A stretch of 64,000 nucleotides of DNA from Minisyncoccota bacterium (lineage in GTDB: Bacteria; Patescibacteriota; Minisyncoccia; Minisyncoccales; Minisyncoccaceae): assembly GCA_028704755.1 (NCBI GenBank), contig JAQWEU010000001.1, positions 1 to 64,000 on the forward strand, in the 5' to 3' direction. The notes under the pieces are model-generated. The model was not told where the DNA came from and searched no databases. It was given only the letters and a program-made list of their open reading frames with translations. Below are positions 57,291 through 64,000 of the stretch, in pieces. The position numbers and the translations under genes are program-made. Position 1 is the stretch's first letter. The number at the start of each line of letters is the position of its first letter.

Positions 57291-59555
57291 TTATATTAGC
57301 TTTAAACAATCGAAGAAATCTTTAATAATTGATTCCTTATCGCCACTAGAATTATATGCACCATTATCGTGTAATTCTATATTAAGGTCATCACAAAGAC
57401 GAATAAACTTTTTCGACTTATCCGAATCTTCGAAACTGCCAACTTTGACTTCAATTAATTTATTAGTAAAAGTTCTAATACTTTTTTTATTTTCGATTAG
57501 ATCTCTTAACTCGAGATAATATTTTCGCTTAAAAATGTGCTCCAATACAATCCTACAATCTTCTTCAAAAGGAGTTGTAAATATTCTCGTATCTAAAATC
57601 TTCTTAATTTTTTCAGTGCGATATGAAATATCATCATCTGGAAAATCTCGGTCAAAATTTGCATGAGAAATCATGCTCCTTTTATTTACACCATCCAGAT
57701 ATTCTTCGATTTTTAACGTACATGCCCCTGGCATGAGACGTTTAAGACTCTTTGCAAAACGCTCCTCATGAGTTAGTATGATTTTTTGTCTAGGGGAAAT
57801 AGTTACCTCTACCCCTTTTGCGTCTTTATATTTACAAGCGATATCAGTAATACAATGCACAGTTTTGCGGCTGCGCTCACTATCAAAACTTGACACTGGG
57901 TCATCAAAAATAACTATCTTATTATCTAATTCATGATCATGCATAAGAAGTGATATAAAGAATGCGAATGCCAAAAGTCGTTTATCGCTTTCGCTTAATG
58001 TATTTTTAAAATTGGGGGCTTTTTCGTCTTCACTATCAATACTTACCTTATGTTTGCCAAAGAATTTAATTGTAAAGATTCGCTCATCCTTACCAACAAT
58101 CTTCTTTAAGGCCTTGAAATCTTCTATTTCAAAGCTAGCCCCCATTTTTGTACAAAGCGAATTAATTGTTTCTTTGTGAGTATCAAAAATTGATGTGGAA
58201 TATATTTCAAGCTCCTTTCTTTTTTTCTCTCGTTCAGCTCTGACCTTATCGGCATCGGCCTCTATCGTATCCCAATCAAAACAAAACTTAATCCAAGTAT
58301 TTTCATGCCTTTTCTTTATAATTTCTAAATATTTTTTTTCACTTTCTAATTGAAGAATTGTCTTAGGCGATGCAATATTAAGTTTATCTTGCTCTAGTTT
58401 CCCTAAATCTGTTTTTATTTCTTCTATGTAAGATTTTAATTTATTAAATGAATCAAAATCAATGATATAATTCAAATCTCGTTTTTTATCTATCTCTTTC
58501 TCAAAATCTACCTTTAAATTTACGAGATCATCAATTTTTGTATCAGTTAAACCAATATCTAAGTCGTTTGTTTTAAGGTCAAATGCAATTTTTTCAAGAA
58601 TTGCCCCAATACCCACACTTTTAAAATAATCAATTGCTTTGGCAATTTCATTTTGGAGGTCTTTATATCCACCCTTAAAGTATGTTGCATAAGTACTAAT
58701 AAGTTGCTCTGCTTCCACTTCAAGCTTTTGACCGCAAAATACGCATGACCTTAAAGAACCATCTATCGGTTTTTTCTTAAGAAATCCTAACCCCTCACTA
58801 AGAAAGCTTTGTGCATTATTATCAGTTGCAAAATGAGATTTAATATGACGTTCAATCTCTTCTTGTTTAGCGTCTAATGTCCTAATAAGAGTATCTTTAA
58901 TATTAAATCTTATACTTGATAAGCTTATTATGTGTGATTTTATTAATTTCTTAATTTCTTCTTTTCCTTGCTCAAACTTAATCTCTTTTTCTTTATCTTT
59001 GATTTTATTATCGATATCATCATCTTTTAAATAAGATTTAAATTTTGCAAAATCTATTCCAGGAAAATATCGAAAAAATTCTTTCGTCATCTCAGTTTTC
59101 TTATTTGCAAAATACTCACTTTTTTCCTGAAGGGCAATTATCTCATTATTAAGTTCTTGTCCTTTTTTACCAATAATAATAGTATTCAAATTCTTTTGCT
59201 GATCAAAAGTTATGCTTTCACCATTAAAAACATTATCTGCAATAAACTTGGAATCAAAAATATGAATGTTTTGATTCGTTTTATTCCAGGCGCAATTTTG
59301 AAATACATATTTATCAATAACTCCTTCTTGCTCAAAATCTATTTCGATATTTTGTGTGCCAGCCACACCAAAGGTTTTTCGCCCAATAAGAATATCGTTA
59401 TTATTAGTTTGAATTGATCTTAAAATAGCAGTGATTGTGCTTTTTCCTTGAGTATTAAGGCCAAAAATAATTGTTTCATTTTTAAACTCGCATCCAGGTG
59501 CTAAACAATTTGAAAACCGACCAATATTTATAATCTTTTTAATTCTCTTAATCAT
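57291..59555 (-). CDS. RloC-like AAA_13 ATPase with zinc hook, candidate anticodon nuclease
   Basis: 754 residues. Walker A GLNTQGKST (32-40), long charged coiled-coil region with a CVFC pair (Cys271, Cys274) in SLRSCVFCGQKLEV, the position and form of a Rad50-type zinc hook, second coil, then ABC-type signature LSESDKRLLAFAF and Walker B KIVIFDDPVSSFD, followed by ILTHEERFAKSL. The C-terminal part has CRIVLEHIF, an R-x3-E (Arg668, Glu672), and LHDN with His729, which could form the Arg-Glu-His triad of PrrC/RloC. RloC cleaves tRNA anticodon loops upon DNA-restriction stress. It begins 3 bases after hsdR. Confidence 0.78.
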   Translation of the reverse strand: MIKRIKKIINIGRFSNCLAPGCEFKNETIIFGLNTQGKSTITAILRSIQTNNNDILIGRKTFGVAGTQNIEIDFEQEGVIDKYVFQNCAWNKTNQNIHIFDSKFIADNVFNGESITFDQQKNLNTIIIGKKGQELNNEIIALQEKSEYFANKKTEMTKEFFRYFPGIDFAKFKSYLKDDDIDNKIKDKEKEIKFEQGKEEIKKLIKSHIISLSSIRFNIKDTLIRTLDAKQEEIERHIKSHFATDNNAQSFLSEGLGFLKKKPIDGSLRSCVFCGQKLEVEAEQLISTYATYFKGGYKDLQNEIAKAIDYFKSVGIGAILEKIAFDLKTNDLDIGLTDTKIDDLVNLKVDFEKEIDKKRDLNYIIDFDSFNKLKSYIEEIKTDLGKLEQDKLNIASPKTILQLESEKKYLEIIKKRHENTWIKFCFDWDTIEADADKVRAEREKKRKELEIYSTSIFDTHKETINSLCTKMGASFEIEDFKALKKIVGKDERIFTIKFFGKHKVSIDSEDEKAPNFKNTLSESDKRLLAFAFFISLLMHDHELDNKIVIFDDPVSSFDSERSRKTVHCITDIACKYKDAKGVEVTISPRQKIILTHEERFAKSLKRLMPGACTLKIEEYLDGVNKRSMISHANFDRDFPDDDISYRTEKIKKILDTRIFTTPFEEDCRIVLEHIFKRKYYLELRDLIENKKSIRTFTNKLIEVKVGSFEDSDKSKKFIRLCDDLNIELHDNGAYNSSGDKESIIKDFFDCLKLI

Positions 59556-59558
59556 AGG

Positions 59559-62500
59559 CTATATAGGTAAATATTCTCTATACACACGTACAGTTTCCTG
59601 ATATATCGACTCTATCAGTCGCTCGGTTTGCACAAGTTCAATAAATCCTTTTTGAAGCAGAAGCAAACGAACATTTTGACGAATACGTGCTTTTATTGTT
59701 TCATTATTAGTCCAATCAATAGCAAGATCGCGACGAATACGCTTTGTGAGCTCCTTTACAAACTCCTTAATATCAATACCTGCTTTTTTAAGATCTGGAT
59801 CAGAAGAAAGAGTATCGTAAAAAACTATCTCTTCCTCTGAAAGACCGAGTTGATGGCTTTCAGCATCCAGTCTTTTTATTTCATCAACAACGTCCAGTAA
59901 GTGCTTAATAATTTCCGCTGAACTAATAACGTTATTTTCATATCTCTCAATTAGATCAGTTAAAAGAGTTAACATAGTTTCATAACGAGCTTTATTATTT
60001 TTTGATCGAACTTTTATTTCTTGATCAAGTATTTTGCGAATAGCATCAATGGCAAGATTCTTATACTTAATTTTCTTGATTTCCTCTGAAAAATGTTCAT
60101 CAAAAATTGAAATACTTTTCTTTCCTCCATTTTCACTGGCAAATAGATCAATAACCCCCTCGGCACGAATAGAATCCTGAATAAGGCTCTTAATCGCACT
60201 CTCTTTGGCTTCTGGAAAAATAATGTGAGGAATTAAAGTCTGTTTACTTATTGCTTCTTTAATTGATTGAAAAAATTGGACATCAGAAATAATTTTCATT
60301 GCCTCTTCTTCAGGCATAACAAGCGCATGTAAGCTTGAAAGTTTGGAAACTTGGCTAATATATGCCATTTTTTTGTCGTCAGACAAGTGCCCATCTTTCG
60401 TAATAACCTCATTCATTGCGGATTGAAATAATTCAACCAACTTAATTCCTTTTTTGTTTTTCCATCCTGAAAAATCGCTATTTGAAAAATAATTAGATAT
60501 TTCGCTATGTACTAGCATCATTTCAGATATTATTTCCTCGAGTGAAATCATGGCCTCTTTTTGAACATCGTTTTCATATATAGCTAAAGCTTTTTTTAAA
60601 TTTTCTGCCACGCCGACATAATCAACAATTAAGCCTCCTGGTTTATCTTTATATACCCTATTTACACGGGCAATTGCTTGCATTAAACCATGATTTCTTA
60701 ACGGCTTGTCTAAATACATCGTATGTAGATTTGGTACATCAAAACCTGTAAGCCACATATCGCAAACTATTACAAGACGAAGTGGATCATTCACTTTCTT
60801 GAATCTTTTTTCTAATTTTTTGACATCGTGCTCATCTTGAACTTTACCAGAGAAATCATTCAATCCAGAAATGACTACTGCACACTCTGGTGCTTTCGCA
60901 ATATTTTTAATAGCGTTATACATCGCAACGGCGATAGGGCGACTCATTGTTACAATCATTGCCTTACCATCAATAGGTCTGCTATTAAAATGACTCACCA
61001 CATCTTTTGCAATCTGCTCAATACGACTTGATGACCCAATAATCTCTTCAAGGTCCACCCATTCCTTTCTAGCTTGAGATTTTTCGTCAATTACAGTTTC
61101 TCCTAAAATATCATCAAATTTGCTATCAATAAATTGGTCGACTAAGTGTAATGGAATTAAACGTCCTTCATAATAAATCGGTACGGTTGCCTTATCCTTT
61201 ACTGCCTGCCCAATCTTATAAGAACTTACAATATCACCAAAAACACGCATTGTGTCTTTTTGTACAGTAGAAATTGGCGTTCCAGTTACACCCAAAAAAC
61301 TAGCTTGAGGTAAAGCACTTCTTACGTTACCTGCAAGTACACTATATTGAGTGCGATGTGCTTCATCAGCAAGAATAATAACATTTTCTCTTTCTGAGAG
61401 AATGTTCATTGCATCTGGATCGTCTTGAAATTTTTGAATAGTTGTAAAAATCAACTCACTACCAAGATGAGTAAGTCGATCTTTAAGATCTTTTATGCTT
61501 GTTGCCCTTTTCGCAAGCGCACCATAACCAGTTCTACTGAATACTTTAAATAACTGATCATCCAAATCTTCACGATCGGTTAGAAAAATATATGCTGGAC
61601 TTTTGAGTTCTGAGATTTTTTTTGTTTTATTTACATAAAAAACCATTGATAATGACTTACCAGATCCTTGAGTGTGCCAAAATACTCCGATTTTTCTATC
61701 TTGTTTACCTAGAACTGAGCTTATTGTACTTTCGATTGTTTTATTAACGCCATAATATTGATGATAAAGAGCCATTTTCTTTGTATAAGTAACAGCATCT
61801 CCATCGCCATCCGCTTCGAAAACTATGAAATTTTGAATAATGTCTAGTAATCGTTGTTTATTAAAAAGTCCTTTTGCTAATAATTCCAATTCAGTTACCC
61901 CCCTTGGAATATTACTATCTGATTCTATACCCTTCCAAGTACCATATCTTTCCCATGAAGAGGAAACAGTACCGTGTCTTGCCTTAGTTAAATCTGATAA
62001 ACAAAGAATTTGGGCATACAAAAAAATTCTTGGAATTTCTTTCTTATAATATTCCATATCACGATAAGCTTGACCAATTGTTGCCTCTTCACGAACCGGA
62101 CTTTTTAATTCAAATACACCAATAGGTAAACCATTTATAAATACTACACCATCAAGACGGCAAACATTATTAATGCCTTGAACGGTAAATTGATTTACAA
62201 ATAAAAATTCATTTGCTTCAATATTTTTAAAATCTACCACTTTTACAATTTCTGTTTTATCAGTCCCATTTTCACGCCAAGTTTTTTTAACTCCCTCAGT
62301 AATTAAAATAAACATTTCCTTATTACCAAGTATTAGGTCAGGATTATGAAATTTAACAACACCATCTACAACTTGTTCTGCTTGAATAGCAGGAAGTTGC
62401 GGGTTAAATCTGCGCACAGCAGAAAGTAGTTTATCTTTAAGGACAATCGTATTGAAATTTTCGCGCAAAGAATTCGCCTGATTTGGCGCTATATCTGGAC

Positions 62501-62582
62501 CATAAGCATACTCATATCCTTGACCTTTTAACCATTCAATTAGAGCCTGTTCTGTTAGGTTATTTTCATTTAAATTGTTCAT
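59559..62582 (-). CDS. hsdR: Type I restriction enzyme R subunit
   Basis: 1007 residues. N-terminal PD-(D/E)xK nuclease: Asp144 in CRLDGVVF and Glu158-x-Lys160 in VFELKSP; Q motif-like QAYRDMEYY follows. Motor: Walker A TQGSGKS (303-310), LADEAHRTQYS (DEAH), GVTGTP, YEGRLIPLHL, and helicase motif VI MQAIARVNRVYKDKPGG. Helical C-terminal region. Translocates and cleaves foreign DNA with HsdM/HsdS. It is packed 7 bases after the protease gene and 3 bases before the RloC-like gene. Confidence 0.95.
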   Translation of the reverse strand: MNNLNENNLTEQALIEWLKGQGYEYAYGPDIAPNQANSLRENFNTIVLKDKLLSAVRRFNPQLPAIQAEQVVDGVVKFHNPDLILGNKEMFILITEGVKKTWRENGTDKTEIVKVVDFKNIEANEFLFVNQFTVQGINNVCRLDGVVFINGLPIGVFELKSPVREEATIGQAYRDMEYYKKEIPRIFLYAQILCLSDLTKARHGTVSSSWERYGTWKGIESDSNIPRGVTELELLAKGLFNKQRLLDIIQNFIVFEADGDGDAVTYTKKMALYHQYYGVNKTIESTISSVLGKQDRKIGVFWHTQGSGKSLSMVFYVNKTKKISELKSPAYIFLTDREDLDDQLFKVFSRTGYGALAKRATSIKDLKDRLTHLGSELIFTTIQKFQDDPDAMNILSERENVIILADEAHRTQYSVLAGNVRSALPQASFLGVTGTPISTVQKDTMRVFGDIVSSYKIGQAVKDKATVPIYYEGRLIPLHLVDQFIDSKFDDILGETVIDEKSQARKEWVDLEEIIGSSSRIEQIAKDVVSHFNSRPIDGKAMIVTMSRPIAVAMYNAIKNIAKAPECAVVISGLNDFSGKVQDEHDVKKLEKRFKKVNDPLRLVIVCDMWLTGFDVPNLHTMYLDKPLRNHGLMQAIARVNRVYKDKPGGLIVDYVGVAENLKKALAIYENDVQKEAMISLEEIISEMMLVHSEISNYFSNSDFSGWKNKKGIKLVELFQSAMNEVITKDGHLSDDKKMAYISQVSKLSSLHALVMPEEEAMKIISDVQFFQSIKEAISKQTLIPHIIFPEAKESAIKSLIQDSIRAEGVIDLFASENGGKKSISIFDEHFSEEIKKIKYKNLAIDAIRKILDQEIKVRSKNNKARYETMLTLLTDLIERYENNVISSAEIIKHLLDVVDEIKRLDAESHQLGLSEEEIVFYDTLSSDPDLKKAGIDIKEFVKELTKRIRRDLAIDWTNNETIKARIRQNVRLLLLQKGFIELVQTERLIESIYQETVRVYREYLPI

Positions 62583-62589
62583 ATATTTT

Positions 62590-63534
62590 TTACCTTTTAG
62601 GTTTCTTTTCTAAAAAAATTGAATCTATCATCAATTCACCAATAAACGAAAATTTATAATCAATAAGATTTGTCAAATTTTCTATTCTAGAGAGCAAGCT
62701 GTAAATACAGTCACCGATCTTATACTCATCGGTGTCTTTTTTAAGGACCTTATCACCGAAAATCGTTTCTGCCTCTTCCTGATCAATCACAAAACTATGA
62801 TCTTTATAACCGTACACTAACCTAGTCGCTATCTCACCCGGATCTTTTATTAATAGATCTTTTTTCTTTTCCAATAATCTTATTGCATACTGTGCAGCTG
62901 ATTCAGCAACTCTTTCATAGTGCCCTATTGAAATAGGTTCAATTGTTAAAGCCAAATATCTTGCGAACATTTCTGACGATTTTGGATTATTTCCAACGAG
63001 CTCAGCAATATGTTCAACAGAATTTTTCAAGCCAAGAGTAGGCATATTATTTATCTGTGGATCAATTGGGCCAAGTTCGCTTAATTTACCCATATGAATC
63101 TCATCTGCTCCGCAAGATAAAAGCGTTGCTGCAGATTTTGCATACCTAGGTACCACTGCAATAAATTTCTTGTCAGAAAATTGTTTGCATAACTTACCAA
63201 TAAGATATGCTGGTCCAGGATAACCACCCCCAGAATGAATTACTAATATCAATGGTTTTGTCCTATCGAGCTTATTTAATGACCTATATATTTTATCGGA
63301 ATGAGTATTAGATAAGGATGCATTGTCGAATAAAACTAATATGTTATACTCGTTTGATTTTGCTTGTTTTTTAACTTCCTGATTTAAATATTCGTTAAAT
63401 TTTTCTAAAAATAGCTTTTTATTTTCATCAGAAGAATCTTTTATATACAATATGAAAATATTTAAAACATCGTTCCAGATAATTTCCTTTTTTAGTTCTT
63501 TTTTATCTTGAGTATTATTACTTCTCTTTGTCAT
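62590..63534 (-). CDS. ClpP-fold serine protease, SDH/SppA-like, inside the hsd operon
   Basis: 314 residues. Serine dehydrogenase-proteinase-type (PF01972-like) fold: LVLFDNASLSN, oxyanion loop IHSGGGYPGPAYL (99-111), nucleophile Ser134 in RYAKSAATLLSCGADEIHMG, and KLSELGPIDPQINNMP (about 151-165). No signal peptide or membrane helix, so it acts in the cytoplasm. Position between hsdS and hsdR with gaps of 4 and 7 bases shows it belongs to the operon. The partner or substrate is unknown; control of restriction subunits by proteolysis is possible but inferred. Confidence 0.8.
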   Translation of the reverse strand: MTKRSNNTQDKKELKKEIIWNDVLNIFILYIKDSSDENKKLFLEKFNEYLNQEVKKQAKSNEYNILVLFDNASLSNTHSDKIYRSLNKLDRTKPLILVIHSGGGYPGPAYLIGKLCKQFSDKKFIAVVPRYAKSAATLLSCGADEIHMGKLSELGPIDPQINNMPTLGLKNSVEHIAELVGNNPKSSEMFARYLALTIEPISIGHYERVAESAAQYAIRLLEKKKDLLIKDPGEIATRLVYGYKDHSFVIDQEEAETIFGDKVLKKDTDEYKIGDCIYSLLSRIENLTNLIDYKFSFIGELMIDSIFLEKKPKR

Positions 63535-63538
63535 ATAT

Positions 63539-64000
63539 TTAGATTAGTTTTACTAATAATTGATCCCTTTGTGAGTTTAAAGAAGTATTTTCTTTCCTCA
63601 AGACTAGAACTTCTTTAGTGATATTTTCAAAAACTTGTAATAATGATATTTCTTTTGGAATTAAAATCCTAAAACCTCTAATGTCACCATTTGATAGATG
63701 GCCAACAGTTGCACCAATAATTGTCTTTTGTAAAAAATTCAATTGCTCCTTTATTGCTTCGTAGATAAAATAGCCTGGTAAATCCGACCTTACTCGCGCG
63801 ACCCTCTGATTAAGGAAAGCACCTTCACTATACCAAAAAGCATAATGAAATATTCCGTCCATACCAATGAGTAAATCGCCTGATTTAATTTCATATTCTG
63901 CTTCAGGAATTTCTGGTGAAAAAGTTTTTGTTACTCCAGACAAAATATCTCTGATACGAACAACAGGAACGCCTAAACCACTCTCATTAAAAAGATTTGA
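63539..64000 (-). CDS. hsdS: Type I restriction specificity subunit HsdS, C-terminal part (cut by window edge)
   Basis: The visible 153 residues run from the window edge: LGVPVVRIRDI, typical of a TRD opening, then KSGDLLIGMDGIFH, RVARVRSD, QKTIIGATVGHLSNGDIRGFRILIPKEISL and a C-terminal coil. This is the end of a target-recognition domain and its conserved dimer helix; the start lies beyond 64000. Reads into the SDH protease gene with a 4-base gap. No hsdM is visible in the window. Confidence 0.9.
   Translation of the reverse strand, partial: SNLFNESGLGVPVVRIRDILSGVTKTFSPEIPEAEYEIKSGDLLIGMDGIFHYAFWYSEGAFLNQRVARVRSDLPGYFIYEAIKEQLNFLQKTIIGATVGHLSNGDIRGFRILIPKEISLLQVFENITKEVLVLRKENTSLNSQRDQLLVKLI

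Follow-up and report, generated by a model that had tools for sequence, protein, structure and literature searches.

An SDH-type, ClpP-fold protease in the hsdS-hsdR junction of a type I restriction-modification operon from a Minisyncoccota bacterium

Background

What does a protease with a ClpP-like fold do between the specificity and restriction genes of a type I restriction-modification operon? The question arises from a window of 64,000 nucleotides, which covers positions 1-64000 of a contig of 101.7 kb (JAQWEU010000001.1) in the 1.12-Mb genome of a Minisyncoccota bacterium (GCA_028704755.1). A preliminary description of the window reported four closely packed genes on one strand, called the presence of an SDH protease next to hsd genes unusual, and suggested that the protease controls the release or turnover of the restriction subunit HsdR, followed by anticodon cleavage. 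An SDH gene beside hsd genes is undescribed in the literature that we searched, where we found no SDH protease reported to act in defence or to lie in an hsd locus. To our knowledge, no anti-phage activity is known for any SDH protease.

Results and discussion

The operon

Re-reading of the window confirmed all four genes on the minus strand, with gaps of 3, 7 and 4 bases between them: an RloC-like ABC-ATPase of 754 aa (57291..59555), hsdR (59559..62582, 1007 aa), an SDH-type serine protease of 314 aa (62590..63534) and hsdS, of which 63539..64000 fall in the window (full gene 64732-63539 on the contig, 397 aa). The operon extends past the window, to a minus-strand membrane ORF of 112 aa with two hydrophobic stretches (65078-64740, ATG at 65078) and to hsdM on the same strand (66915-65080, 611 aa), the gene that the preliminary description had proposed to look for on an extended contig. 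The full order is hsdM, small membrane ORF, hsdS, protease, hsdR, RloC-like ATPase, and the gaps from hsdM onward, checked base by base, are 1, 7, 4, 7 and 3 bases. No intrinsic-terminator signal inside the operon rose above those of shuffled sequences, and the GC content of the operon (30-36%) makes it AT-richer than the contig (37%). The short gaps make a single transcript of six genes likely, in agreement with the operon-like unit first described.

The profiles that match the three hsd genes point to a type I system. HsdR matches TIGR00348 with 588 bits, the HSDR_N nuclease domain (PF04313) with 134 bits and the SWI2/SNF2 motor (PF18766) with 241 bits; HsdM matches N6_Mtase (338 bits) and HsdM_N (89 bits) and carries a helix-turn-helix at its N terminus; and the Methylase_S match of HsdS is weak in Pfam and strong in PADLOC. 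With all three subunits in one locus, the earlier assignment to type I holds, and by its domain content the locus contains the full gene set of a type I restriction-modification operon, with guest genes in its junctions.

The protease

The protease scores 52.1 bits against the SDH family (PF01972), above the Pfam cut-off of 31.3. A profile made for its own family aligns Ser134, which lies in the motif AKSAAT, with the catalytic Ser of ClpP. In an alignment of about 55 relatives, Ser134 and the C-terminal His246 line up in almost every row, which is not so for Lys133 and His147; the motif around the His is YKDHSFVID in the window protease and SHxYPI or similar in relatives. Judged by this conservation across relatives, Ser134 and His246 are likely to be the catalytic pair. 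A structural model built from nine sequences is of medium confidence (pLDDT 72.7, low around His246), and its best match among solved structures is ClpP (4jcq, TM 0.62 normalized by target length, E 5.7e-4), while its best viral match is a giant-virus "serine dehydrogenase proteinase". The family score, the alignment of the Ser and the match of the model all favour the SDH/ClpP-fold label that the protein had been given. No hydrophobic or transmembrane stretch was seen in it, which makes a cytosolic location probable.

Within the SDH family of Clp-fold serine proteinases (PF01972, NF047768) the protein shares the ClpP-like core, the SDH signature, the nucleophile Ser and the C-terminal His. 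It differs from the NCBIfam equivalog NF047768, which it matches with 64.2 bits against a cut-off of 250, in belonging to a distinct clade with its own YKDH and AKSAAT motifs, and it is a relative of that equivalog rather than a member. We rejected a canonical ClpP because there was no match to the Clp protease family (PF00574) at 0.01 and no partner unfoldase gene in the operon; the likeness is limited to the fold. A phage head-maturation protease was rejected as well, since the PHROG matches are weak and the prophage copies lie in accessory regions. The protein resembles phrog_11747, a phage family without an assigned function. No PADLOC model matches the window protease, and one of nine clade members weakly matches PDC-S26 (E 0.007).

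Distribution and mobility of the clade

The search for relatives covered plasmids, phages, IMG/VR, GTDB contigs and some 1,000 genomes. The window protease falls in a monophyletic clade of 11 distinct sequences (100/100 support), outside which the next best scores drop from 355 to 101 bits. The other members come from a second genome of the source phylum (G288, 51% identical to the window protease), one Acidobacteriaceae genome (G473), a 4.1-kb ColRNAI plasmid of Klebsiella and seven viral contigs of IMG/VR. Strong matches occur in 2 of 380 genomes of the source phylum, and no other of 297 genomes in the phylum of the Acidobacteriaceae member has a clade protease; this near absence from relatives led us to reject a housekeeping gene that landed in the operon by chance. 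The Klebsiella copy, used as a DNA query against E. coli genomes, gave no match. The contig scan, run with a single protein query, returned one relative, and it under-samples recurrence beyond the source phylum.

The surroundings of the clade members indicate that the clade protease is an accessory, mobile gene. It adjoins an integrase at two loci (L018, L019), comes after a lysis and Dam-type region in three tailed prophages (L057, L058, L060), lies 49 bases downstream of a candidate defence gene of the RelA/SpoT type at another locus (L055) and, in one more prophage (L056), lies 67 bases before an HSDR_N-AAA-S1 gene. Of the 11 members, a single one lies within a type I operon, and another has an HSDR_N gene after it. 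Neither G288 (96% complete) nor G473 has a match to HsdR (TIGR00348). Since the clade is mobile and present without HsdR, it does not represent an HsdR-dedicated protease.

Two observations were made in passing on the prophage loci. The neighbour in L056 (8854-11514), of 886 aa, combines HSDR_N, AAA-like and S1 RNA-binding domains and has the look of a nuclease-ATPase that has yet to be described. A divergently oriented ORF of 87-91 aa, Cas2/SinR-like by eye and a possible partner or regulator, lies upstream of prophage SDH genes (L019, 1249-1512; L057, 6511-6786; L058, 5010-5282; L060, 6534-6803).

The RloC-like ATPase

The second guest occupies the slot after hsdR. It matches AAA_13 (PF13166) in Pfam with 64 bits and the candidate defence family PDC-S06 in PADLOC with 217 bits; a sequence search of the PDB returned no match. 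When it is aligned with five relatives of 23-45% identity, all six sequences share an invariant Walker A, CXXC zinc hook (C271/C274), ABC signature, Walker B and switch His, as well as the C-terminal triad R668-x3-E672...H729. The published RloC motif is R-x3-E-x36-52-H plus a CXXC zinc hook (PMC2610378). The E-to-H spacing is x56 here and x47-56 in the family, so that the anatomy fits but the last spacing is slightly beyond the published range, and we use the label "RloC-like" for this reason. The protein shares with the PrrC/RloC anticodon nucleases (PMC2610378, PMC3874168) the location in a type I locus, the ABC motifs, the zinc hook and the R-x3-E...H triad, and differs in the longer spacing; it is a probable anticodon nuclease. 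The triad and the zinc hook put the earlier identification as an RloC-like ATPase on firmer ground.

The two guests of this one operon could be imagined as a captured two-component pair, in which the protease activates or restrains the nuclease. The relatives make this very improbable. The five RloC-like relatives lie in hsdM-hsdS junctions (L120, L122), in an hsdS-hsdR junction (L123) or apart from hsd genes (L119, L121), none of them with an adjoining SDH gene, and no other member of the SDH clade was seen with an AAA_13 neighbour.

The hsdS-hsdR slot across the phylum

To see what the junction normally contains, we picked the top HsdR matches from 380 genomes of the phylum, whatever genes lay next to them, and read the loci. 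In each of the 15 operons whose hsdS and hsdR share a contig (L002, L123, L124, L126-L134 and L136-L138), at least one ORF lies between the two genes on the same strand, usually with gaps of -20 to +30 bases and mostly of less than 30. The occupants vary widely. Among them are a CBASS cyclase (390 bits) with a 2TM effector (L129, 3724-5583), Shedu SduA (L137), an AAA_13/PDC-S06 protein (L126) and an AAA_13 relative (L123), the metallo-beta-lactamase-fold PDC-M48B (L128), PIN_12 (L133), HATPase with HSDR_N_2 (L136), DUF4062 (L130) and a KAP-like NTPase (L124); the remaining occupants belong to no named family and are candidates for defence genes. The window protease, a same-strand gene unrelated to hsd with gaps of 4 and 7 bases and with clade members elsewhere in the absence of HsdR, is an embedded guest of this kind. 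The 14 other operons, which carry the same HsdR family, hold unrelated guests and no SDH protease in the slot. In two of the loci read, hsd genes are broken, hsdM into two frames (L123, 12839-14390) and hsdR into three pieces (L134, 7334-10477); decay, phase variation or assembly errors are possible.

Similar embedding has been described in other bacteria. DarTG2 sits in the hsdS-hsdR junction of an E. coli type I operon, the EPEC RRDM island, a junction that the authors regarded as a potential recombination hotspot (PMC12255303). The junction is identical to that of the window protease and the guest is likewise a foreign defence gene, though an ADP-ribosylating toxin-antitoxin pair rather than an SDH protease, and the EPEC operon has a regulator, RptR. 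Genes embedded in the type I locus of V. cholerae protect independently (PMC11411939): TgvAB of VPI-2 is protective alone and is mostly found outside type I loci, but it consists of GmrSD-like nucleases, not proteases, and its protection was shown by experiment. RloF has also been documented within type I operons. Embedding as such is already known; what is new is the SDH protease as an occupant and the regularity of the slot.

Recurrence near restriction and methylation genes

A second junction between hsdS and an SDH gene was found in genome G212 (L143), where hsdM, a membrane ORF and hsdS are followed 12 bases on by an SDH gene before the contig ends. In the tree this SDH branches as sister to the clade (97/94, with long branches), and it is 27% identical to the window protease over 271 positions. 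The hsdM and hsdS of L143 are unrelated to those of the window operon. As the hsdM genes of the two operons are only 26% identical, and the SDH proteins 27%, the pairing in L143 is likely to have arisen in another type I lineage.

The pairing has a bearing on the proposal that the protease is a built-in restriction controller, which degrades or releases HsdR, spares self DNA and perhaps then lets the RloC-like nuclease act. The two independent hsdS-SDH junctions favour this proposal, as do the gap of just 7 bases between the protease and hsdR and the control of type IA and IB HsdR by ClpXP, described in E. coli (PMC12707154). The control of EcoKI HsdR by ClpXP likewise involves a ClpP-fold protease and a type I restriction enzyme, but ClpXP is a housekeeping protease of the host with an ATPase unfoldase, whereas the window protease is encoded in the operon, which has no unfoldase gene, and its relatives occur without HsdR. 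The closest homologues belong to genomes in which no HsdR was detected, or stand by themselves in prophages or on a plasmid, and the slot holds unrelated guests in the 14 operons with the same HsdR family. We consider control of HsdR by the protease quite unlikely, and the sequence of events in the preliminary description, from HsdR release or turnover to anticodon cleavage, finds no support in these data.

Beyond the hsd operons, SDH genes of the phylum lie near DNA methyltransferases more often than expected. Seven of 27 are within 2.5 kb of a methyltransferase (PF02384 or PF01555), against 0.67 expected from uniform placement (Poisson 7e-6), and 8 are within 5 kb, against 1.21 expected; some of these SDHs are mutually related, defence genes cluster in islands, and PF01555 is not always restriction. 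Examples are a type IIG-like gene and an SDH gene 101 bases apart (L053) and an SDH gene near a methyltransferase with DUF6996/6997 (L050). The recurrence that the preliminary description had proposed to count is present to a modest degree, as one further independent hsdS-SDH junction and as this excess near methyltransferases.

In other clades, a recurrent two-gene module consists of an SDH gene and, 1-7 bases after it, the gene of a small membrane protein (L049, 8502-9930; L050, 8275-9724; L051, 6660-8282; L141, 7210-8949). We considered the small membrane ORF of the operon as a partner of the protease in the light of these pairs, but membrane-like guests also occur in the hsdM-hsdS junction of loci without an SDH gene. 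A separate observation concerns a 470-aa protein in L054 (11557-12969), in which a LexA DNA-binding domain and an S24 peptidase are fused to an N6/N4 DNA methyltransferase, an unusual joining of an SOS-type repressor to a DNA methylase; a protein in L121 (5464-7044) starts alike.

The carriage of clade members on a ColRNAI plasmid and in prophages, together with the similarity to phrog_11747, also fits a gene that looks after itself. The protease might be a selfish or anti-restriction passenger, which blunts host defence or secures its own maintenance and came to the operon by chance. Three observations argue against this and make it unlikely: the slot is otherwise full of defence genes, SDH genes are enriched near DNA methyltransferases, and the precise, short gaps leave the operon intact.

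Role of the protease

On balance the protease is rather probably an independent, defensive proteolytic guest of the type I operon that shares the hsd transcript. An independent effector role is the most likely because the clade is mobile and occurs without HsdR. The hsdS-hsdR junction is a slot whose passenger varies between the operons of the phylum and is often a recognised defence gene; in this operon it is a soluble ClpP-fold SDH protease, and the RloC-like nuclease takes the slot after hsdR. On sensing infection, the protease would cut a protein of the phage or of the host, and proteolysis would act alongside restriction and tRNA cleavage. Weighing against a defensive role are the lack of a meaningful PADLOC match in the clade and the location of most members outside restriction loci.

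More tentatively, and with somewhat less than even confidence, the clade and its sister SDH proteases may form an unrecognised family of antiviral effectors that is spread by prophages and plasmids and has been recruited repeatedly by restriction systems, in the type I hsdS-hsdR slot and in type IIG and type II loci.

Conclusions

If it is defensive, the protease adds a proteolytic mode to the riders of type I operons, which include nucleases, ADP-ribosyltransferases and CBASS-type modules. The varied passengers in every comparable operon examined, in a phylum of very small genomes, supply candidate defence genes ready for study, and guilt by embedding becomes testable in organisms that are hard to culture.
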